This document shows positions 1,493 to 56,398 of a DNA stretch of 64,000 bases, one piece after another. Under the pieces are notes generated by a model. The model was not told where the DNA came from, did no database searches, and saw only the letters and a list, made by a program, of their open reading frames with translations. The DNA comes from Teredinibacter sp. KSP-S5-2 (GTDB lineage Bacteria; Pseudomonadota; Gammaproteobacteria; Pseudomonadales; Cellvibrionaceae), in the NCBI RefSeq assembly GCF_032773895.1, contig NZ_CP120416.1, positions 1,672,001 to 1,736,000 of the forward strand. Reading direction: 5' to 3'. The translations under genes and the position numbers were made by a program. Every line of letters starts with the position of its first letter. Position 1 is the stretch's first letter.

Positions 1493-2337
1493 TGACGGTT
1501 CATTGCAAACCTATTTTAGTGACAGGTTGTTCCAGTGGAATAGGGCTTAGTGCGGCTGAGATCCTGCAAAAAAGAGGATATAAAGTTGTCGCCAGTGCTC
1601 GTATACCTGAAGATGTTGAAGCGCTAAAAGAAAGAGGCTTGCAACATGTTGTTCAACTCGATCTGGAGTCGAGTGCATCCATTGATTCGGCGATTGAGCA
1701 GGTACTCGAAATTACCGATGGTAAATTATTTGCCCTGTTTAATAACGGGGCATATGGTATCCCGGGGGCGGTTGAAGATCTAAGTCGTGAAGCGCTCAGA
1801 ACGCAGTTTGAGACAAATCTATTTGGAACTCATGAGCTGACTGTAAAGTTGATTCCGACCTTACTTAAGGAGAAGGATGCCCGGATTGTTCAAAACAGTT
1901 CTGTACTGGGGTTTGCGGCTATGCCGATGCGTGGAGCATACAATGCTTCCAAGTTTGCGCTGGAAGGCTTGACCGATACCATGCGTATTGAACTGTCTGA
2001 AACCAATATTAAAGTCAGTTTGATTGAACCTGGCCCAATACATACCCGTTTTCGGGAAAACGCACTTGCGGCTATGAGGCGTCATATTGATTTTTCTAAA
2101 AGTCGTCATCGCCAGCGTTACGAAGAAGCCTTGGCTCGCCTTACCAAAGAAGGGCCGAGTTCAAAGTTTACCCTTATGCCTGAGGTGGTGGTGGATAAAT
2201 TGATCCATGCTTTGGAGTCGCCCAGGCCCAAGGTACGTTACTACGTAACCTTTCCTACCTACCTATTTGCTTATCTAAGGCACATTCTTTCTTACAGGCA
2301 AATGGATAAACTGCTGTTGAAGGTTGTTAAGTCCTGA
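1492..2337 (+). CDS. Short-chain dehydrogenase/reductase (SDR family)
   Basis: The 281-aa protein is a classical SDR. The Rossmann glycine motif TGCSSGIG is at residues 11-18, the NNGAYG segment follows beta-4, a Ser precedes the catalytic pair (QNSSVLGF), and the active-site motif is YNASK (Tyr and Lys). The C-terminal region ends with hydrophobic and basic residues (YLFAYLRHIL), as in SDRs that act on lipid or retinol-like substrates. Substrate and NAD/NADP preference cannot be read safely. It starts on the last base of the S1/P1 nuclease stop, so the two form an operon although their functions are not obviously linked. Confidence 0.9.
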   Translation: MTVHCKPILVTGCSSGIGLSAAEILQKRGYKVVASARIPEDVEALKERGLQHVVQLDLESSASIDSAIEQVLEITDGKLFALFNNGAYGIPGAVEDLSREALRTQFETNLFGTHELTVKLIPTLLKEKDARIVQNSSVLGFAAMPMRGAYNASKFALEGLTDTMRIELSETNIKVSLIEPGPIHTRFRENALAAMRRHIDFSKSRHRQRYEEALARLTKEGPSSKFTLMPEVVVDKLIHALESPRPKVRYYVTFPTYLFAYLRHILSYRQMDKLLLKVVKS

Positions 2338-2465
2338 TCCCGGTGGGAATGACATCAGAGTTTATTTAATACTTTCTTTTTCTACTGCTTCCTCTTCAAA
2401 ATTACTCTGTTGTATTTTTTTGATGTAATTTACGCCATACAATTGCATACGCCGGCTGCTGGGCT

Positions 2466-3101
2466 ATGTTGAATAAAAATAACAACAATGAGCAGCTTGC
2501 AATGTCTGATTCCCCTCCGCGAAGCCGGCCATCAACACCTGAGCCCAGACCATCTCCCAGAAGGGCTTCTTCGTCTGATGAATCACTTTCCCCTATGCCA
2601 AGCCCAGCGGCCGCTGGGCTATCATCTGCGTTATCAACACCACCGTCGTCACCAAGAGTCCGATCCGCTGCAGCGGCAAGTAGTTCAGCTGCAGCGGCAT
2701 CTCACCCTTCACCTAGAGCAATGGCTCCACCTCCAGAAACAGATTTTATGATGGGAATGGGTGGTTTGAACAAGCACACAAAAAGAGCCGAAGAGAAACA
2801 GACAACAGTCCCAAGAAAAGTAAAAGGAAGGCGCGGTAAACCAAGTGCAATGGTGAATACTACGGTAAGAAACGCCTCCACCTTACAACGCCATATGGCA
2901 CGGTTAAAGGCAGGACATGGTCGACCTACAGGCCGTACTGTGCCCACTGGAATGGGAAATGCAGATGTTTTCGAGTTATCCACCAGCACACCAGGGCGAG
3001 CCCCATCCCTTTACGCGAGAAAACCAGATGGTGGTACATTCCCTCTACCACCATCAGACGGCTTGGACTATGAGTCAAGCGATGACGAAAGCGGCAGCTG
3101 A
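2466..3101 (+). CDS. Ser/Pro/Ala-rich, probably intrinsically disordered protein of unknown function
   Basis: I do not recognise this 211-aa protein. Residues 1-90 are low complexity: an Asn run, then many SP and TP dipeptides (SPPRSRPSTPEPRPSPRR), then alternating Ser and Ala blocks (AAAASSSAAAAS). Residues 95-165 are basic (KHTKRAEEK, KVKGRRGKPS, RHMARLKAGHGRPTGR). The tail is acidic (DYESSDDESGS). There is no signal peptide or membrane segment. The proline-directed and acidic serine sites look more eukaryotic than bacterial. A second in-frame ATG at 2502 is possible, and neither start has a clear ribosome site. Codon use seems more GC-rich than its neighbours. Alternatives are an effector-like or nucleic-acid-binding disordered protein, or a recently arisen ORF. 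Confidence 0.5.
   Translation: MLNKNNNNEQLAMSDSPPRSRPSTPEPRPSPRRASSSDESLSPMPSPAAAGLSSALSTPPSSPRVRSAAAASSSAAAASHPSPRAMAPPPETDFMMGMGGLNKHTKRAEEKQTTVPRKVKGRRGKPSAMVNTTVRNASTLQRHMARLKAGHGRPTGRTVPTGMGNADVFELSTSTPGRAPSLYARKPDGGTFPLPPSDGLDYESSDDESGS
2601..2620. repeat. Perfect 20-bp palindrome inside the Ser/Pro-rich gene
   Basis: The sequence AGCCCAGCGG is followed at once by its exact reverse complement CCGCTGGGCT, giving a perfect 20-bp palindrome with a NotI-type GCGGCCGC core. The last bases, GCTGGGCTAT, repeat the stretch just before the gene's first ATG (about 2457-2466). It lies in a coding region for Pro-Ala-Ala-Ala-Gly, so codon bias explains part of it. Confidence 0.6.
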
Positions 3102-3165
3102 TGTTGAAAGAGTTTCTTTTGTTCTCGGTATATGCCTGGTACCACTTGATATTTTTATCTAGGCG

Positions 3166-3591
3166 TTACTCTCCATTTTCATGTGTATTATTTATGGTTG
3201 GATTGTTATTCGGAACAACTGGCACCACTGTCGGGCTTGTGCGCGAGCGATGTAATATATAAATACTTACGCTTAAACCAATGACAATCAATATGGCTGT
3301 AACCAGCGGTTTTTGCACAATGAATGCAGAAATCGCCAAGCATAACCACAAACTGAGAAGAATTTTATTGCGTGTTTTTTTGGGGATGGGTTGGCCAGAG
3401 CTCCAGGCATTTATTAGCGGGCCCAGTTTGGGGTGACTTGTTAACCAGTTGTGGAAAGAGCTGGATGAGCGTGCAAAACACCAGGCGGCGATGAGTAGAA
3501 AAACTGTCGTGGGCAGTAAGGGAAGGAAAATGCCCAGGGTGCCCAGAGCAACACATAACCAGCCGGTACCAATTAAGCAAATACGTTTCAT
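3166..3591 (-). CDS. YbaN-family (DUF454) small inner-membrane protein
   Basis: The 141-aa protein has an N-terminal pair of hydrophobic segments separated by a short loop rich in Pro and Leu (LGIFLPLLPTTVFLLIAAWCF), then the family-typical ARSS..FH.WL and HP..GP.I..W...G.IP segments, and a second hydrophobic pair. This pattern is the DUF454/YbaN family, whose biochemical role is unknown. The last 30 residues are polar and Asn/Thr-rich. It is a single gene, reading toward the Ser/Pro-rich gene. Confidence 0.85.
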   Translation of the reverse strand: MKRICLIGTGWLCVALGTLGIFLPLLPTTVFLLIAAWCFARSSSSFHNWLTSHPKLGPLINAWSSGQPIPKKTRNKILLSLWLCLAISAFIVQKPLVTAILIVIGLSVSIYILHRSRTSPTVVPVVPNNNPTINNTHENGE

Positions 3592-13557: not shown

Positions 13558-14463
13558 TCAGGTTTCTTCTTGCTTGTGCTGGATCTTTCTTCCTAGGGTA
13601 GTGATTGATATCCCCAATAAGTCAGCCGCTTTTTGACGGTTTCCTTCGGTTCTTAGTAGGGTTTCGCGAATTATCTCAGCTTCCACCAGGCGGGTTATTT
13701 CTTTCATGTTGCCGGACGGGTTGGAGATCTGTTCTGCAAAGGATTTCATAAACTCTTTTTGCGGGGACTTCGGTAGCCAATACATGAATTTGTATTGATT
13801 TTCGCGAGTTTCGATATAAATGAGGAACCATAAACTGGCACATACAAATAATGAGAATATACCCGTTGCGTTAACTTTGATCCCAACAGCCATAAGAAGC
13901 ACGATAGCAAGAATCGATACAATAATGGGGAGGCCGGCGACCAATAAGCTGAGCGACTTGCGTCGTAACAGCTGATCGTTATTTCGCTGCCATGAAAAGT
14001 ATCCAATCAGAAAGCTTAGAACCAAAGGAAGCAACAGGCCTAGCTGAATAACCCAATAGCCTTTGCCTGGCTCGCGTGTTAGGGAGTAGCCGAGGCTTTT
14101 TACGCCGACTATGGCAAAGTCAGGCCAATATATTGAAACTGTAACTAGGGAGAATAGGGTTCCAACGATTCTTAATATCAGCTTGTTGAGGTAATTAGCG
14201 GTTTCCAATGTTAGAAGGAAGTAACCGTTGAAGGTCAGTACCAGAAGGAAATAGTAAGTCTTTAAAAAAGGTAGAGAGCCTGAGGTATTGTGAAGGTTGA
14301 AGAAAACCAAAATCTCTAGAATATTTGCACAGAAAAGACCCGTGAAGAAAGCCAGAAAAAAAGGGCTGGCTTTCTTCAAAAAGTTACCACTCTGAATTAG
14401 TATCAGCACCTTCAACGAGATAGCCAGGATACTAATTGCTGCAAATAAATATACAATAGACAT
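13558..14463 (-). CDS. Seven-TM receptor-like protein fused to a Fis-type DNA-binding domain
   Basis: The start is the ATG at 14463, which shares its A with the stop of the ketosynthase gene (TGATG coupling); the product is 301 aa. Residues 1-222 contain seven hydrophobic segments of helix length, with short polar loops. Residues about 252-298 carry a Fis/HTH_8 helix-turn-helix (EAEIIRETLLRTEGNRQKAADLLGIS split over the recognition helix ITTLGRKIQ). This architecture is a one-component, membrane-bound transcription factor: an integral sensor with a cytoplasmic DNA-binding tail. There is no AAA+ sigma-54 domain and no kinase domain. Coupling to a ketosynthase III suggests it may sense or control that product; this is inference. 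Confidence 0.75.
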   Translation of the reverse strand: MSIVYLFAAISILAISLKVLILIQSGNFLKKASPFFLAFFTGLFCANILEILVFFNLHNTSGSLPFLKTYYFLLVLTFNGYFLLTLETANYLNKLILRIVGTLFSLVTVSIYWPDFAIVGVKSLGYSLTREPGKGYWVIQLGLLLPLVLSFLIGYFSWQRNNDQLLRRKSLSLLVAGLPIIVSILAIVLLMAVGIKVNATGIFSLFVCASLWFLIYIETRENQYKFMYWLPKSPQKEFMKSFAEQISNPSGNMKEITRLVEAEIIRETLLRTEGNRQKAADLLGISITTLGRKIQHKQEET

Positions 14464-15461
14464 CAGAATTGAAAAGCCGCTTGGCACATTGAAGCCCCAC
14501 TTCCGGCCCCGAGTACCAATACTTTGTCTCCTTTTTTAGGTCGATCAAAACACATGTTTACAGCATGTGTAGCACTAGTCAAGTTCCCAAACAAATGATA
14601 GCTTCTGGATACTCTTTCTGACGCCAAATTCGTCAGTTTTATCATTTGTTTATGGGGTCTTTCGCCGACTTGATGGAAATAGGCGTGGTCTATTTCCTCA
14701 GATTTCCAGCCAATTTTTTTATAGGTTTCGCCAATCATTTCCTGATGGTTTTCCACCATAGCACCGCTGATTTCCTCCATTCGCATCTCAAAGTCAATGC
14801 CTTCTGGGGTATGCCTGTAATAGCAGAGATTACGGAACTTCCCGTCAGCCTTAAAATGAATATATTTACACCCCGTATCGTCAGTGGATTTACTGACAAC
14901 AAAGGCACCGCCGCCATCTCCGACAGTGAAAGCCCCCAGGAGTTTACGGAAAAGCGACTTGTCATTGCTTTTCCGTAATTGCCTTATCGCGTCGATTGAT
15001 AATTGGCTGGGTTTTTCTCCTGTGCAGATAAGAATGTTTTCCGCCATGCCCGAATTAATATAGGCATGAGCAACAGAATAACCAGATAGCATACCTATGC
15101 AGGCATTACTGACATCAAGGCAGGCTGCGTTCCATGCTCCCAGCTCTGCTTGTACTTCGTGAGCAGTAGAGGGCTCCGGCTTATCCCGGTCAATTCCGCA
15201 AAATAAAATGAGATCGATATCCAGCGGGTTAATTCTTGCGTCAATAATTGCATCTCTAGCTGCCTGGATAGCAAGATATCCGTAGGATTGATTTGGGTCG
15301 GAAAAGCGTCGTTGTTTTATACCGCTCGCTCGACTTAAAAAACTTTCGGATACGCCAAATTTTCTGGATTGGGCTTCGTGCATAAGTTCTTCTGTCGTCA
15401 CAATGCTTTTTGGTAAAAACGCGCCAATTCCAGTGATTTTTGATCCACTACTTGTTTTCAT
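14463..15461 (-). CDS. 3-oxoacyl-ACP synthase III-family ketosynthase (FabH-like)
   Basis: The start is placed at the ATG at 15461 (MKTSSGSKITGIGAFLP) because a GGAGAAA site lies just upstream; the product is 332 aa, normal for KAS III. The active-site Cys sits in DVSNACIGMLSG, His in AYFHQVGERPHK and Asn in FGNLTSAT, so the Cys-His-Asn triad is intact. KAS III enzymes condense an acyl-CoA with malonyl-ACP or a second acyl unit. The N-terminal region (AQSRKFGVSESFLSRASGIKQ) differs from housekeeping FabH and no other fatty-acid genes are near, so a specialised product, perhaps a lipid signal, is likelier than bulk fatty acid. It is translationally coupled to the 7-TM regulator. Confidence 0.82.
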   Translation of the reverse strand: MKTSSGSKITGIGAFLPKSIVTTEELMHEAQSRKFGVSESFLSRASGIKQRRFSDPNQSYGYLAIQAARDAIIDARINPLDIDLILFCGIDRDKPEPSTAHEVQAELGAWNAACLDVSNACIGMLSGYSVAHAYINSGMAENILICTGEKPSQLSIDAIRQLRKSNDKSLFRKLLGAFTVGDGGGAFVVSKSTDDTGCKYIHFKADGKFRNLCYYRHTPEGIDFEMRMEEISGAMVENHQEMIGETYKKIGWKSEEIDHAYFHQVGERPHKQMIKLTNLASERVSRSYHLFGNLTSATHAVNMCFDRPKKGDKVLVLGAGSGASMCQAAFQF

Positions 15462-15477
15462 TATGTTTTCTCCGAGG

Positions 15478-15509
15478 TTAATTAGTTGCGTAATACACAC
15501 TCTAATTAA
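15478..15509. promoter_or_regulatory. Inverted repeat upstream of the ketosynthase gene (possible operator)
   Basis: TTAATTAG (15478-15485) and CTAATTAA (15502-15509) are perfect 8-bp inverted arms separated by 16 bases, beginning 17 nt before the ketosynthase ATG. Arm spacing of about 24 bp centre to centre places both on one DNA face or could form an mRNA hairpin. It is a candidate site for the adjacent Fis-type regulator; this is untested. Confidence 0.45.
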
Positions 15510-15694
15510 CTGGCAGAAATGGCAGTAATGCAACGATACGGCGCCAAAAATTAGTAGCAGACTTTAGTCGAACTTATCATTTGCCAAATGTATGCGTATT
15601 TGTTGTGTGTTTGTTGCAGAGAGGTTGGTTGACGGAATAGCGTAATGTGGTTCTTGAGAGGAGGTGTGTGTGAACGAAGCTTCTTGACGGCAAT

Positions 15695-41035: not shown

Positions 41036-41609
41036 GTGCCACAAAAGAAATAATAAGAAATTGACCGTTTTTACCTTATTTCAAAGAGGTATTAAACGAA
41101 TCCAATTAAATTCTATAGTCGTCTAAAATTTCAGACTTTAGTTCAATTTAGAATAATAAGAATCTTTATTTCTCAGAAAATAACAGTAATTGAGGATTTT
41201 TCGTGCAAAATCACATTGACGGAAAAAAAATCCGATGATAACTTCAGTTTTAATTGTTGCGGGCTAATATAGATTTTACTAATCGATATAACAGAAAAAA
41301 TCTATTACTGGTTTGGCAACCATCGTTGGCGAAAGCCGTCTGCTCTGAGTGGCTGTATAAAAACATAAGGATGCGACTAGAGCTTTATTGGACACGTTAC
41401 GACGCATGAAAAAAATTAAAATGCGTTAACTATCACAAAACGTGTAGTAATACTAAAAGGTTTATACCCTGAGCTGAAGGGTCAGAATTTTGGTCCGCGT
41501 GAATGTGGTTGGTTAAGTCACGCATGCGAGAACCAAAATGCAATAGCATTGAGGTTAGATAATAAAAATGAAACCCAATGTGCTTCTTTTGATCAAGAGG
41601 AAATACATA
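41036..41609. other. 574-nt leader region of the chitinase gene
   Basis: No gene is convincing here. The sequence holds a small cluster of short stems (CAAC/GTTG and GGC-GAAA-GCC near 41316-41336) and an inverted repeat ACGCAT-N13-ATGCGT at 41402-41426. These could be part of a structured leader or operator for chitinase control, but I match them to no known riboswitch. Confidence 0.45.
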
Positions 41610-43358
41610 ATGAAAAAAATAATGGCTACAGCTATCACCGCTGGTGCTGTTATGCTTTCTGGACAAGCTATGGCAGCTGTAGACTGCTCTGGCTTACCGG
41701 AGTGGCAAAACGGCGATACATTTACCGGTGGTCAATCCGTTCAGAGAAATGGCAGTAAGTACACAGCTAATTGGTGGACTCAATCTGATCCCGAAACAAA
41801 TTCTGGTCCATGGCAAGAGTGGACTTTTAACGACGTATGCTCTGGTTCAACTTCAAGTTCTTCCAGTTCATCTTCCAGCTCTAGCAGTTCTTCGAGCTCA
41901 AGCTCGTCCTCAAGTTCAAGCAGCTCATCTAGCTCTTCGTCCTCTTCTGGTGGCAGTACTTGTGAAGCTTACCAAGCTGGCGCAACTTACCAAGTCGGCG
42001 ATAAAGTAAGTAATGCTGGTGGCACCTTCGAGTGTACAGTAGCGGGCTGGTGTTCTTCTGGCGGTGCATACGAGCCTGGCGTAGGTTGGGCATGGGAATA
42101 TGCTTGGACTTCTCCTGCGGATTGTGGAAGCAGCTCAAGCTCATCTTCCAGCTCAAGCAGTTCTTCTTCAAGTTCTAGCAGCTCAAGCTCATCGTCCAGT
42201 TCTTCAAGCTCTTCATCATCCAGTAGTTCTTCTTCAAGTTCTTCTGGTGGTACTGGTGGCAAGCTTCTAGCGGGTTACTTCACCGAGTGGGGTATCTACG
42301 ACCGTAACTACCATCCTAAAAATTTGGTCACCAGCGGTTCTGCCGAGAAGCTAACGCACATTGTTTTCGCGTTTGGTAATGTGACTAACGGTCAGTGTGT
42401 ACTTGGCGATTCCTATGCCGATTACGATCGTTTCTACTCTGCTGCAGAATCTGTAGACGGCACCAGCGATGACTGGAACAGCACTGAAGTACGTGGTCTG
42501 TTTGGTCAGTTCAAGAAATTGAAAGCCATGTACCCACACTTGAAGATCGTATGGTCTTTCGGTGGCTGGACCTGGTCTGGTGGTTTCGGTCAAGCAGCAG
42601 CAAACGCAACAGCATTCGCTGATCAATGTTATGGTTTGGTCAATGATCCACGTTGGGCGGGTGTATTCGACGGTATCGACATCGATTGGGAATATCCAAA
42701 CGAGTGTGGTCTAACCTGTGACACGTCTGGTTTCGACAGCTACCGCGTATTGATGCAAGCATTGCGTGCTCGATTCGGCAACCAGCTTGTGACTTCTGCG
42801 ATTGGTGCGGGTGAATCCAAACTATTGGCAGCAGACTACGGCGGTGCAGCTCAGTACCTGGATTTCTACATGATCATGACCTATGACTTCTTCGGTGCAT
42901 GGGCGAAGAACGGTCCTACCGCGCCTCACTCACCATTGAACGATTGGGCTGGCATGCCAATTCAAGGCTTCAGCACAGACCACGGTATCGACACTCTACT
43001 TAGTCTGGGCGTACCAGCGAACAAAGTATTGTTAGGTATTGGTTTCTACGGTCGTGGTTGGACGGGTGTTACGCAAGCCGCGCCTGGTGGAACGGCAACC
43101 GGTGCAGCAGCAGGTACTTACGAAGCCGGTATTGAAGACTACAAAGTGTTGAAAGGTAGTTGTCCTATCACCGGCCAAATTGCGGGAACCAACTACGCAT
43201 ACTGTGGCAACAACTGGTGGTCCTATGACGATCCAGCGACCATCCGTGCGAAGATGCAATATGCTAACGGTCGTGGCCTGGGCGGTGCATTCTTCTGGGA
43301 GACTAATGGTGATACTGCAAATGGTGAACTGATCAGTGCGATGAAATCTGGCCTGTAA
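41610..43358 (+). CDS. Secreted multi-domain GH18 chitinase with polyserine linkers
   Basis: From the ATG at 41610 (AGAGG site upstream) the product is 582 aa: signal peptide 1-22 ending AMA; a CBM5/12-type chitin-binding module about 24-77 (LPEWQNGDTFTGGQSV, KYTANWWTQSDP); a polyserine linker about 80-113; a second Cys-paired module about 117-172 (AYQAGATYQVGDKVSN, WCSSGGAYEPG), perhaps CBM73-like; a second polyserine linker about 174-212; and a GH18 domain from about 218 with FDGIDIDWEYP, Glu361 being the predicted acid/base. GH18 enzymes cleave chitin with retention of configuration. The polyserine linkers are a known trait of Saccharophagus and relatives. It is a monocistronic gene. Confidence 0.95.
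   Translation: MKKIMATAITAGAVMLSGQAMAAVDCSGLPEWQNGDTFTGGQSVQRNGSKYTANWWTQSDPETNSGPWQEWTFNDVCSGSTSSSSSSSSSSSSSSSSSSSSSSSSSSSSSSSSGGSTCEAYQAGATYQVGDKVSNAGGTFECTVAGWCSSGGAYEPGVGWAWEYAWTSPADCGSSSSSSSSSSSSSSSSSSSSSSSSSSSSSSSSSSSSSSSGGTGGKLLAGYFTEWGIYDRNYHPKNLVTSGSAEKLTHIVFAFGNVTNGQCVLGDSYADYDRFYSAAESVDGTSDDWNSTEVRGLFGQFKKLKAMYPHLKIVWSFGGWTWSGGFGQAAANATAFADQCYGLVNDPRWAGVFDGIDIDWEYPNECGLTCDTSGFDSYRVLMQALRARFGNQLVTSAIGAGESKLLAADYGGAAQYLDFYMIMTYDFFGAWAKNGPTAPHSPLNDWAGMPIQGFSTDHGIDTLLSLGVPANKVLLGIGFYGRGWTGVTQAAPGGTATGAAAGTYEAGIEDYKVLKGSCPITGQIAGTNYAYCGNNWWSYDDPATIRAKMQYANGRGLGGAFFWETNGDTANGELISAMKSGL
41851..41946 (+). repeat. Polyserine-coding tract 1 of the chitinase
   Basis: An almost pure Ser run of about 30 codons mixes AGC, AGT, TCA, TCT, TCC and TCG codons, so it is selected at protein level rather than a simple DNA slippage repeat. 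It links the two carbohydrate-binding modules. Confidence 0.85.
42130..42243 (+). repeat. Polyserine-coding tract 2 of the chitinase
   Basis: This holds 38 near-continuous Ser codons, again with mixed codons, joining the second binding module to the GH18 domain. Near-repeats of AGCTCAAGCTCATC occur within it, which would allow recombination-driven length change. Confidence 0.85.
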
Positions 43359-54850: not shown

Positions 54851-56398
54851 TTACTGGTAATAGTATTCGAGGTTAACGTCGCTGTATGCTGAATAACCAT
54901 AAATACTTATCCACCATGTGTCTTGAGCTGGCGTATTGATTGTGCAGGATTCATTGTTCCCAGAAAGATATGGTCTGCAGTCGTATGTGCTGAGTGTCGC
55001 GTAACTACCTTTTCGTACATACAAATCGGCATCACCAGTCCCGCTATTCATTGATACTTCCAGTTTTGTTGTGCCCGATGGAACTTGAATCGTGTAATTA
55101 CGCCATTGACCTGCAGAGCCGGATATATTGGTGTGACTTTCTCCTACGGGCTGCCCGGAAGAGGAACCACCAGTTATGAAACTTGCCGTCAGATTGAGGT
55201 TGCTAAAGCTCTCGTAAGCTCTCACACCAATATAATAGTCTCCCGCACTGGGCGAAGAGACTGAACAGCTTTCAGCATTACCGGATTCATAAGGTCGGCA
55301 GTCGTATGTGGATGTGGTGGGCTTGCTGCCGTAGCGGATATATAAATCTGCATCGCCTGTCCCTCCAGATATAGCGATGTTTAAATCCGAGGCATTTGAG
55401 GGAACATTGATTTTATATTCCACCCAATTGCCCGTAGATGCGGATAAACCTGCAATTGTTTGCCCATTGCTTATTGTTCCTGTGCCACCAGATGAACTGC
55501 TGCTACTTGAACTGCTGGAGCTACTGCTACTGGAGGATGAACTGCTGCCTGAGCAGTTATTTTGGTAAATACAGGCAACCCATTCCGGGTGATCAATAAA
55601 AGGGTTTCGATTGCCTTGGTAACCATAGACTTTGTCATTACGTAGCATTTCGTTGCTGTCTACCGGGTCTTGGTTATGCCATTGAATTAACGTGGACAGC
55701 TTGCCCATGTAGGCTAATGAAGCATTAGAGCCAGTACCCTGTATCAAGCTGGTGTTGTCGGTGAGTTGCAAATTGGGCTCGGAAGCACCGGTAACTCCGT
55801 GATAACCCCCTTCATAGCGAATGTCCATGTAAAACATGGCTCGGGCAATGTCGCCTTTGCGTTCGTCCCAGACTTCCCAGCTATCGCTATCCGTCCAGTT
55901 GGAATCTCCCGAGCCGCCACGACCGTCGTTATATGCGGTTGCTTTTTCACTGCATCCGCTGGTGCAGTTGTCAAAGTATTTGTTACTGCGAGAAGAGTTA
56001 TAAGACACATCGGCGGCAAACAGGTGGTGAACGTCCGTGTAGGGGTAGTTGCTGCTGTTATCGTTGGGAAAACCTATGGACTTTGGCCAGGAGTGCTCGC
56101 GGTTGTAGTTTGTGTTGCCACCAGAGGCTTTGGGGTAGGCAGAATTTTTGTATATTACGGCTACTTGCCCCGAGTTTGTTTGGTCTTCATCTGCATCGGC
56201 AATAATGTCCCAGGTATCTGTTGCCGATGAGGTGTAAGGGTATCGGGTGTGGTCATCAATAATGTTATGCAACGATGATCTAAGGCTGGAAGCACTTGAT
56301 GGATTTGCACTGTTGTAGTAGCTAGAAGGGGCCTCGGAAAAAGCATTTACTGCCAGAAATAAAAAAATGCCAATAAAAAAAATCTTTGATGTTCTCAT
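54851..56398 (-). CDS. Secreted endonuclease I with polyserine linker and two PPC domains
   Basis: The 515-aa protein has a signal peptide (about 1-22) and an endonuclease I domain (about 25-280) with the beta-beta-alpha metal motif YNREHSWPKS and DVHHLFAAD. A polyserine linker (about 283-303) follows, then two similar pre-peptidase C-terminal (PPC) domains (about 310-400 and 415-515), each with DADLY-type repeats (GTGDADLYIRYGSKP, GTGDADLYVRKGSYA) and a Cys pair. Endonuclease I degrades double-stranded DNA outside the cell. PPC domains usually occur on exported proteases, so this extension is unusual for a nuclease. Confidence 0.92.
   Translation of the reverse strand: MRTSKIFFIGIFLFLAVNAFSEAPSSYYNSANPSSASSLRSSLHNIIDDHTRYPYTSSATDTWDIIADADEDQTNSGQVAVIYKNSAYPKASGGNTNYNREHSWPKSIGFPNDNSSNYPYTDVHHLFAADVSYNSSRSNKYFDNCTSGCSEKATAYNDGRGGSGDSNWTDSDSWEVWDERKGDIARAMFYMDIRYEGGYHGVTGASEPNLQLTDNTSLIQGTGSNASLAYMGKLSTLIQWHNQDPVDSNEMLRNDKVYGYQGNRNPFIDHPEWVACIYQNNCSGSSSSSSSSSSSSSSSSSSSGGTGTISNGQTIAGLSASTGNWVEYKINVPSNASDLNIAISGGTGDADLYIRYGSKPTTSTYDCRPYESGNAESCSVSSPSAGDYYIGVRAYESFSNLNLTASFITGGSSSGQPVGESHTNISGSAGQWRNYTIQVPSGTTKLEVSMNSGTGDADLYVRKGSYATLSTYDCRPYLSGNNESCTINTPAQDTWWISIYGYSAYSDVNLEYYYQ

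Follow-up and report, generated by a model that had tools for sequence, protein, structure and literature searches.

The DNA analysed here, referred to as the window, is a stretch of 64,000 nucleotides from Teredinibacter sp. KSP-S5-2 (C1:1672001-1736000 of a 5.03-Mb host genome in a single contig), and our subject is a pair of adjacent genes on its reverse strand. They encode a ketosynthase resembling beta-ketoacyl-acyl carrier protein synthase III (KAS III, or KAS for short) and a protein with seven predicted transmembrane (TM) helices and a Fis-type helix-turn-helix (HTH) tail, here called the 7TM-Fis protein or candidate receptor (Table 1). The KAS protein scored above the Pfam cut-offs for ACP_syn_III (46.3 bits) and ACP_syn_III_C (43.2 bits), and the sole Pfam match above cut-off in the 7TM-Fis protein was HTH_8 (49.6 bits; cut-off 22). 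An earlier note on this DNA had described an intact Cys-His-Asn triad in a KAS III whose gene overlaps, by TGATG, one for seven membrane helices with a Fis tail, and this description was confirmed: C121, H263 and N293 are present, the KAS stop codon TGA (14465-14463) runs into the start codon ATG of the second gene (14463-14461), and the helices and HTH tail appear in an AlphaFold model (mean predicted local distance difference test, pLDDT, 93.9) and in the HTH_8 match.

Table 1. Features of the gene pair and its upstream region, in window positions
Feature	Position	Strand	Remarks
KAS III-like ketosynthase, 332 aa	14463..15461	-	start ATG at 15461; Cys121-His263-Asn293 triad and Glu96-Pro97
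7TM-Fis protein, 301 aa	13558..14463	-	seven predicted TM helices, TM4-TM5 beta-hairpin, C-terminal HTH_8
Seven-helix domain, residues 1-230 of the 7TM-Fis protein	13774..14463	-	polar Lys18 (TM1), Asn47 and Glu50 (TM2) kept
Fis-type helix-turn-helix, HTH_8, residues 258-295	13579..13692	-	Pfam match
TGATG stop/start overlap of both genes	14461..14465	-	unconserved feature of the pair
Inverted repeat GTTAATTAG-N16-CTAATTAAC, immediately 5′ of the KAS start	15477..15510	.	unconserved in homologs
Short palindrome CATTTGGCAAATG, 6-bp arms, 129 to 117 bases 5′ of the KAS start	15578..15590	.	weak candidate operator

Recurrence of the gene pair

A public genome collection was scanned with a KAS alignment and the best 80 of 135 loci were used (loci, genomes and contigs are numbered L, G and C below); a scan of the same collection with the single KAS sequence gave zero relatives, and it was the alignment query that retrieved the loci. 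In 43 of them (L069-L111, the closest loci) the best segment is at least 30% identical, and the other 37 (L112-L148) are distant KAS III. Of the 43 closest loci, 40 have an open reading frame (ORF) for a 7TM protein that follows the KAS in the same orientation and begins no more than about 500 bases from the KAS match. The count among the 37 distant loci is 0; some of these have short 3′ flanks (e.g. L118, L123), so that an absent neighbour there carries less weight. A 7TM gene is missing from three of the closest loci: L089, and L081 and L106, where the contig breaks off close to the KAS gene or within it. In several of the 43 (e.g. L077, L094, L107) the KAS ORF falls short of the match in length.

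When 58 genomes, the window's own included, were searched with the 7TM protein, near-full-length matches were found in the own genome and five others. Within the family, 30 receptor genes occur in 15 of 144 genomes and 8 of 32 genera, and a KAS gene lies within 1.5 kb of 22 of the 30. The full 7TM-Fis profile matched 385 of 390 genomes of the order sample because the Fis HTH is common; full-length or 7TM-covering proteins among the matches listed were therefore counted, and later searches used a 7TM-only profile. Counting the own genome each time, the 7TM domain is present in at least 9 of 390 genomes of the order sample and in 7 of 321 of the class sample, and the 7TM-only profile found it in 1 of 398 genomes of the phylum sample, namely the own.

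Neighbouring ORFs were clustered over 48 loci, with two contigs represented twice. KAS was recovered in 47 loci and the 7TM protein in 45, the next families reaching at most 15 loci of one syntenic group; no further enzyme is therefore conserved beside the pair. Together with the genome-sample counts, this clustering establishes the KAS/7TM cassette as two genes that occur sporadically in changing surroundings. The pair recurs in various Gammaproteobacteria far beyond chance, and the earlier note's proviso that the homologs might prove rarely adjacent is contradicted, adjacency being the rule in both directions. That the two genes are chance neighbours with unrelated roles is scarcely credible: the rarity of the receptor, with just 15 of 144 family genomes carrying it, would speak for this explanation, and adjacency in dozens of loci whose surroundings otherwise differ speaks against it. 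The stop/start overlap (TGATG or TAATG) is found in only 4 of 43 pairs examined (one locus, L070/L193, entering twice; the ATG at this place in L079 is not the 7TM ORF start), so translational coupling is not the conserved trait. A distant KAS/7TM-like pair with a weak 7TM profile score was also seen at L155 (G708; 1144-2130 and 2132-3331).

The own genome has three KAS/7TM pairs (that of the window, C1:2851127-2852994 and C1:2856505-2858364) and one solo 7TM gene, and several pairs share the genome OFTM290 (L096, L104 and two in L109). 7TM genes that stand alone, any KAS being more than 1.5 kb away, were found at L159/L030:7082-8041, L171, L175, L192, L187, L189, L195 and L183; several of them sit in genomes that also carry pairs, and in G025, which has a solo 7TM gene, a whole-genome KAS search found none. 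Tandem receptors stand behind a single KAS at L032, L033, L107 and L191. A further distant KAS III-like gene of the own genome (L038:8164-9186, C1 about 1826200; 28% identity over query positions 5-148) has no own-genome 7TM match near it.

The receptors of the pairs diverge faster than the enzymes: the window pair and its closest own-genome counterpart share 35% identity in the receptors and 70% in the enzymes. Over 45 pairs the KAS and 7TM distance matrices correlate with r = 0.936, a value reached in 0 of 5000 permutations, which is tempered as support for partnership by being uncorrected for shared species history and by two genomes standing in the set twice.

Active site of the ketosynthase

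Besides the triad, the window enzyme has a Glu-Pro pair (Glu96-Pro97) that aligns with the Glu-Pro of solved OleA chains, the glutamate corresponding to OleA E117 by the entry titles and to PpyS E105. The OleA glutamate reaches into the active site of the partner subunit as a general base, and PpyS, the photopyrone signal synthase, needs E105, the E105A exchange abolishing photopyrone, according to the part of PMC4578411 that treats these enzymes; MxnB and CorB are described in that part as being without the glutamate. An OleA protein alignment presented in a portion of PMC7064751 has glutamate followed by proline in all but two sequences. In our alignment, glutamate occupies this position in 48 of 48 family sequences and in 13 of 33 other KAS III, FabH 2ebd having Phe, and the triad is kept almost throughout the family (Cys 48/48, His 47/48, Asn 48/48). 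The 48 KAS rows include L089 and, since two genomes were encountered twice, two pairs of identical rows (L043/L080 and L045/L088); four of the distant loci (L113, L120, L135 and L146) yielded no KAS ORF.

In a maximum-likelihood tree, from which L141 (active site broken) and rows of 250 residues or fewer were left out, a branch with support 100/96 separates the 48 family KAS from OleA, the other Glu-bearing enzymes and FabH; in this tree, which contains no PpyS, OleA sits on a long branch. Judged by sequence, the window enzyme and its family thus form a clade of their own among the Glu-type ketosynthases. The AlphaFold model of the KAS (pLDDT 95.0) matched OleA chains with TMq up to 0.90 and FabH chains with about 0.85.

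Three known identities were tried and rejected. As a housekeeping FabH the enzyme scored 144.6 bits with TIGR00747 against a cut-off of 292.1, and glutamate replaces the Phe of 2ebd; as a DarB/StlD ketosynthase it scored 13.8 bits with NF053539 against 550 and 15.1 with NF005293 against 450. For OleA proper, the enzyme lies on a separate side of the tree (100/96) and no third gene recurs beside it, the search having covered neighbouring genes and not oleBCD elsewhere in the genome. The presence of the OleA/PpyS glutamate indicates that the enzyme is not an ordinary FabH. Of the KAS III-like signal makers which the earlier note had named for comparison, DarB is a poor one (13.8 bits with the NCBIfam DarB model), and OleA and PpyS together are better suited.

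The glutamate fits a lipid or pyrone product, and by the chemistry known for Glu-type enzymes the window enzyme should condense two acyl thioesters head-to-head. A different proposal is that the ketosynthase acts on the receptor itself, by acylation or complex formation, with no free product. The distance correlation of the pair agrees with it, as do the ketosynthases with acylating activity mentioned in part of PMC4578411; the Glu-Pro signature is typical of enzymes that condense carbon with carbon, however, and condensation explains all four conserved catalytic positions, for which reasons we consider action on the receptor very improbable.

Predicted form of the receptor and candidate operators

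The AlphaFold model of the 7TM-Fis protein, built with 64 aligned sequences (pLDDT 93.9, predicted TM-score 0.88), has seven long helices (residues 3-24, 34-55, 60-88, 94-112, 136-160, 164-192 and 200-216), a beta-hairpin at 118-132 in the TM4-TM5 loop and, after TM7, a helical stalk and shorter helices that include the HTH. Across the 64 proteins, in which two genomes are present twice, the mean number of Lys plus Arg per stretch is 2.2, 1.8, 2.3 and 2.4 on the predicted cytoplasmic side and 0.4, 1.4 and 0.6 on the predicted periplasmic side; the N-out/C-in topology proposed for checking by the earlier note is thus supported by loop charges and by the helix model. HTH_8 was matched at E 0.01 by 59 of the 64, and the architecture, an input domain and a Fis HTH predicted in one chain, is that of a one-component regulator.

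In the first two helices of the model, Lys18 is conserved in 60 of the 64 aligned proteins, Asn47 in 62 and Glu50 in 63, which hints at a functional polar site. These near-invariant polar residues in predicted helices, and the close pairing of the genes, would suit a receptor that holds the KAS product tightly as a prosthetic ligand, like retinal in rhodopsin, and senses light, redox or a third molecule. Solo 7TM genes exist, one of them in G025 without any KAS by whole-genome search, and nothing indicates a chromophore; we regard a prosthetic ligand as improbable.

HisKA_7TM (PF16927), a sensor domain of histidine kinases according to a part of PMC5847659, was matched by 27 of the 64 aligned receptors (best 1.1e-10). 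In a Foldseek search against solved structures the first matches were class C and other G protein-coupled receptors (GPCRs), with a best E of 0.003. Among VIA alignments the top row, titled only GPCR, had Z 16.8 (3.6 A over 210 residues, 11% identity) and mGlu5 had Z 16.6 (3.6 A over 211 residues, 8% identity), and the rows after the top were mostly mGlu, CaSR and GABA(B) chains with Z 15 to 16.6; microbial rhodopsins were not among the best 50 VIA rows listed. Helical bundles may reach about Z 13 in VIA without kinship, and we therefore read the likeness to GPCRs as a resemblance of fold only. Class C GPCRs have a TM4-TM5 loop cysteine bonded to TM3 and a venus-flytrap domain, two features that the window protein lacks: it has no Cys in residues 111-137, comprises 301 aa and begins its first helix at residue 3.

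Two paired receptors are much longer, with an extended linker in addition to the 7TM domain: L110:5134-7785 (883 aa, ending in HTH_8) and L154:1483-3705 (an 859-aa frame, cut in the locus), the latter with a sub-threshold match to the sigma-54 activator domain. These long receptors suggest that the Fis tail was derived from the sigma-54 activator family, and the short 7TM-Fis protein possibly descends from a form like theirs.

Upstream of the KAS gene the earlier note had reported a perfect 8-bp inverted repeat. Its presence stands, with arms of 9 bp (15477-15485 and 15502-15510) around a 16-base spacer; its conservation does not, for it is absent from 11 other KAS upstream regions (those of the two other own-genome pairs and of nine further KAS genes), several of which show other short repeats, and GTTAATTAG/CTAATTAAC was rejected as an operator on this ground. 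Dinucleotide shuffling produced arms of at least 9 bp with a spacer of up to 25 in 1 of 500 sequences for the 60 bp upstream and in 20 of 500 for the 300 bp upstream; 20 of 213 window tiles of 300 bp have such arms, and the repeat is therefore not clearly beyond chance.

Two other lineages have conserved palindromes 5′ of KAS, TGTAGGA-N5-TCCTACA (or its half-sites) and TTTCA-N4-TGAAA. Over a set of 50 upstream regions, of which many are related and two genomes are counted twice, TTTCA-N3-5-TGAAA is found in 15, GTAGGA-N3-6-TCCTAC in 10 and the half-site TCCTACA in 23. Neither the TGTAGGA nor the TTTCA motif occurs in the window, where CATTTGGCAAATG stands about as far from the KAS start as TTTCA-N4-TGAAA does in two other lineages. 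The exact TGTAGGA-N5-TCCTACA has one copy in the G381 genome (L165:1501, G381:C46:21623-21641), about 200 bases 5′ of KAS, and sites with two mismatches lie between KAS and 7TM in G381 and 5′ of KAS in G414. The 7TM-Fis protein may bind one or another of these palindromes. A copy with one mismatch in G381 (L169:1501) precedes a 306-aa ORF, a possible target. A regulon search with the relaxed palindrome failed, with fewer hits than the reversed pattern in all 4 genomes.

Elsewhere in the window, positions 2466-3101 hold a 211-aa ORF of low complexity, very rich in Pro, Ser and Ala, and ORFs named by sequence inspection as chitinase-like and nuclease-like, with long poly-serine linkers, lie at 41568-43358 and 54851-56398.

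A proposed lipid signal and its membrane reader: interpretation and comparison

We read the pair as a synthase of a lipid signal together with a dedicated one-component receptor embedded in the membrane, and to this reading, in any form, we assign a probability of roughly 0.55. What is observed is the conserved pairing, the active-site signature, the predicted architecture of seven helices and HTH, and the palindromes upstream in other lineages; the identity of the product, its binding by the 7TM protein, DNA binding, export and autoregulation are what we infer. In its full form the proposal is tentative, with the odds against all its parts holding together: the pair would be a two-gene lipid communication system in which a distinct ketosynthase clade makes a released autoinducer that is read in the membrane by a seven-helix receptor of GPCR-like fold with its own DNA-binding domain, and parallel channels could coexist in one cell. 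Since the seven-helix receptor would carry its own DNA-binding domain, the GPCR-like protein would itself be the transcription factor.

Mechanistically, the ketosynthase would load an acyl thioester on Cys121, and Glu96, reaching over from the partner subunit as in OleA, would deprotonate the alpha carbon of the acyl chain for head-to-head joining to a second acyl or beta-ketoacyl thioester. The hydrophobic product, a beta-keto acid with its ketone or an alpha-pyrone, would partition into the membrane, possibly leave the cell, and bind within the helix bundle of the adjacent 7TM protein. Ligand binding would then alter the cytoplasmic Fis HTH, probably dimeric, at operators that may include the promoter of its own operon.

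The main rival, which we hold to be unlikely, is local feedback: the 7TM-Fis protein would sense a membrane lipid, a fatty acid or the state of the membrane and set the level of the synthase, whose product would be a structural or protective lipid or an antibiotic. A regulator predicted in the membrane beside a lipid-forming enzyme is what such feedback would look like, the palindromes 5′ of the operon fit autoregulation, and OleA, as set out in a portion of PMC7064751, starts the synthesis of hydrocarbons and beta-lactones. However, no finishing enzyme recurs beside the pair (the rest of the genome was not searched for oleBCD), three or four pairs in a single genome, as in the own genome and OFTM290, and additional solo receptors are odd for lipid homeostasis, and the faster divergence of the receptors than of the enzymes (35% against 70% identity) also argues against it.

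Several observations weigh against a lipid-signal synthase with a membrane receptor. On the side of the enzyme, Foldseek places a FabH first by E-value for the KAS model, the best solved relative by sequence score is FabH 2ebd (115.6 bits), ahead of OleA (94.3 bits), and the paired KAS at L100:3992-4984 has Tyr at the position of the catalytic His and may be inactive or altered. The pairing has its exceptions: L089 is a KAS locus with 4 kb of flank on each side and no 7TM gene, and at L160 (G558) the genes converge and form no operon (7TM at 1498-2418, plus strand; KAS at 2431-3513, minus strand). On the side of the receptor, 5 of the 64 proteins have no HTH_8 match at E 0.01, the C-terminal tail of the paired 7TM protein L035:8379-9254 does not align to the HTH, the distant paired protein of L155 is without any Pfam match, and the window protein gave no HisKA_7TM match in the Pfam search. 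Sequence identity to GPCRs is 6-15% in the rows listed, and Foldseek gave no match at E 0.001 or better. As to operators, just one of the 4 genomes searched has the exact TGTAGGA palindrome (G398, G414 and the window's own lack it), the pattern with two mismatches is rarer than its reversed control in 4 of 4 genomes (10 against 18 in G381), and TTTCATNNNTGAAA is about as frequent genome-wide as its reversed control. Finally, the diffusible nature of the product and the binding of ligand and DNA by the receptor are steps we infer. At L035 a stop lies inside the profile match of the order-level search, and a frame change near the end is possible.

Hydrophobic signals made by a single ketosynthase (photopyrones) and membrane one-component regulators are already known. 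In the open-licence literature, among the matches listed, we recognised no 7TM-Fis regulator, no pair of KAS III and membrane receptor and no bacterial GPCR-like transcription factor; within that scope, what appears new is that a separate clade of Glu-type ketosynthases usually has a seven-helix Fis regulator as its partner. If a lipid signal and its reader are indeed encoded here, the pair would add a new class of synthase and receptor, found in Gammaproteobacteria that are marine or uncultured, and would supply a minimal, portable protein that is at once receptor and transcription factor for a hydrophobic signal. It would also offer a bacterial seven-helix receptor whose ligand is directly findable because the gene making it adjoins the receptor gene, and whether GPCR-like seven-helix sensor domains read lipids in bacteria would become testable.

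Among known systems, LuxI and LuxR are autoinducer synthase and receptor pairs, accompanied by LuxR solos, and by analogy a stand-alone synthase with a dedicated membrane transcription factor, parallel pairs and solo or tandem receptors resembles pairs of this type. PluR, the receptor of the photopyrone system, is soluble. The PpyS/PluR system of Photorhabdus, as far as the relevant part of PMC4578411 describes it, is like our pair in combining one ketosynthase with an extra glutamate, a hydrophobic signal (here a proposed one) and a transcription factor that reads it; PluR is described there as a LuxR-like receptor, whereas our candidate receptor crosses the membrane with seven predicted helices and carries a Fis HTH. 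OleA (PDB 3row) shares with the window enzyme the Glu-Pro at 117, the Cys-His-Asn triad and the fold (TMq up to 0.90), but the window enzyme belongs to a separate clade, has a regulator gene as its neighbour and has no recurring ole-type partners beside it.

The HisKA_7TM kinases are akin to the receptor family in the input domain matched by 27 of 64 members, the window protein's own match being below detection; unlike them, the receptor has no kinase, and its output would be a DNA-binding HTH that belongs to the same polypeptide. Class C GPCRs (mGlu, CaSR) resemble the receptor model in the arrangement of seven helices (Z up to about 16.8), and the model also has a TM4-TM5 hairpin; the receptor differs in having no venus-flytrap and no TM4-TM5 loop cysteine, in its identity of about 10% and in its DNA-binding tail, so that what the models share is a fold and we claim no kinship by homology. 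ToxR and CadC are membrane-bound one-component regulators. Such regulators, treated in a part of PMC11856585, are like the receptor in being membrane-resident transcription factors; the receptor is set apart from the ToxR/CadC kind by the lack of a sizeable periplasmic domain, by its seven helices, by its Fis HTH and by a synthase gene as its usual neighbour.

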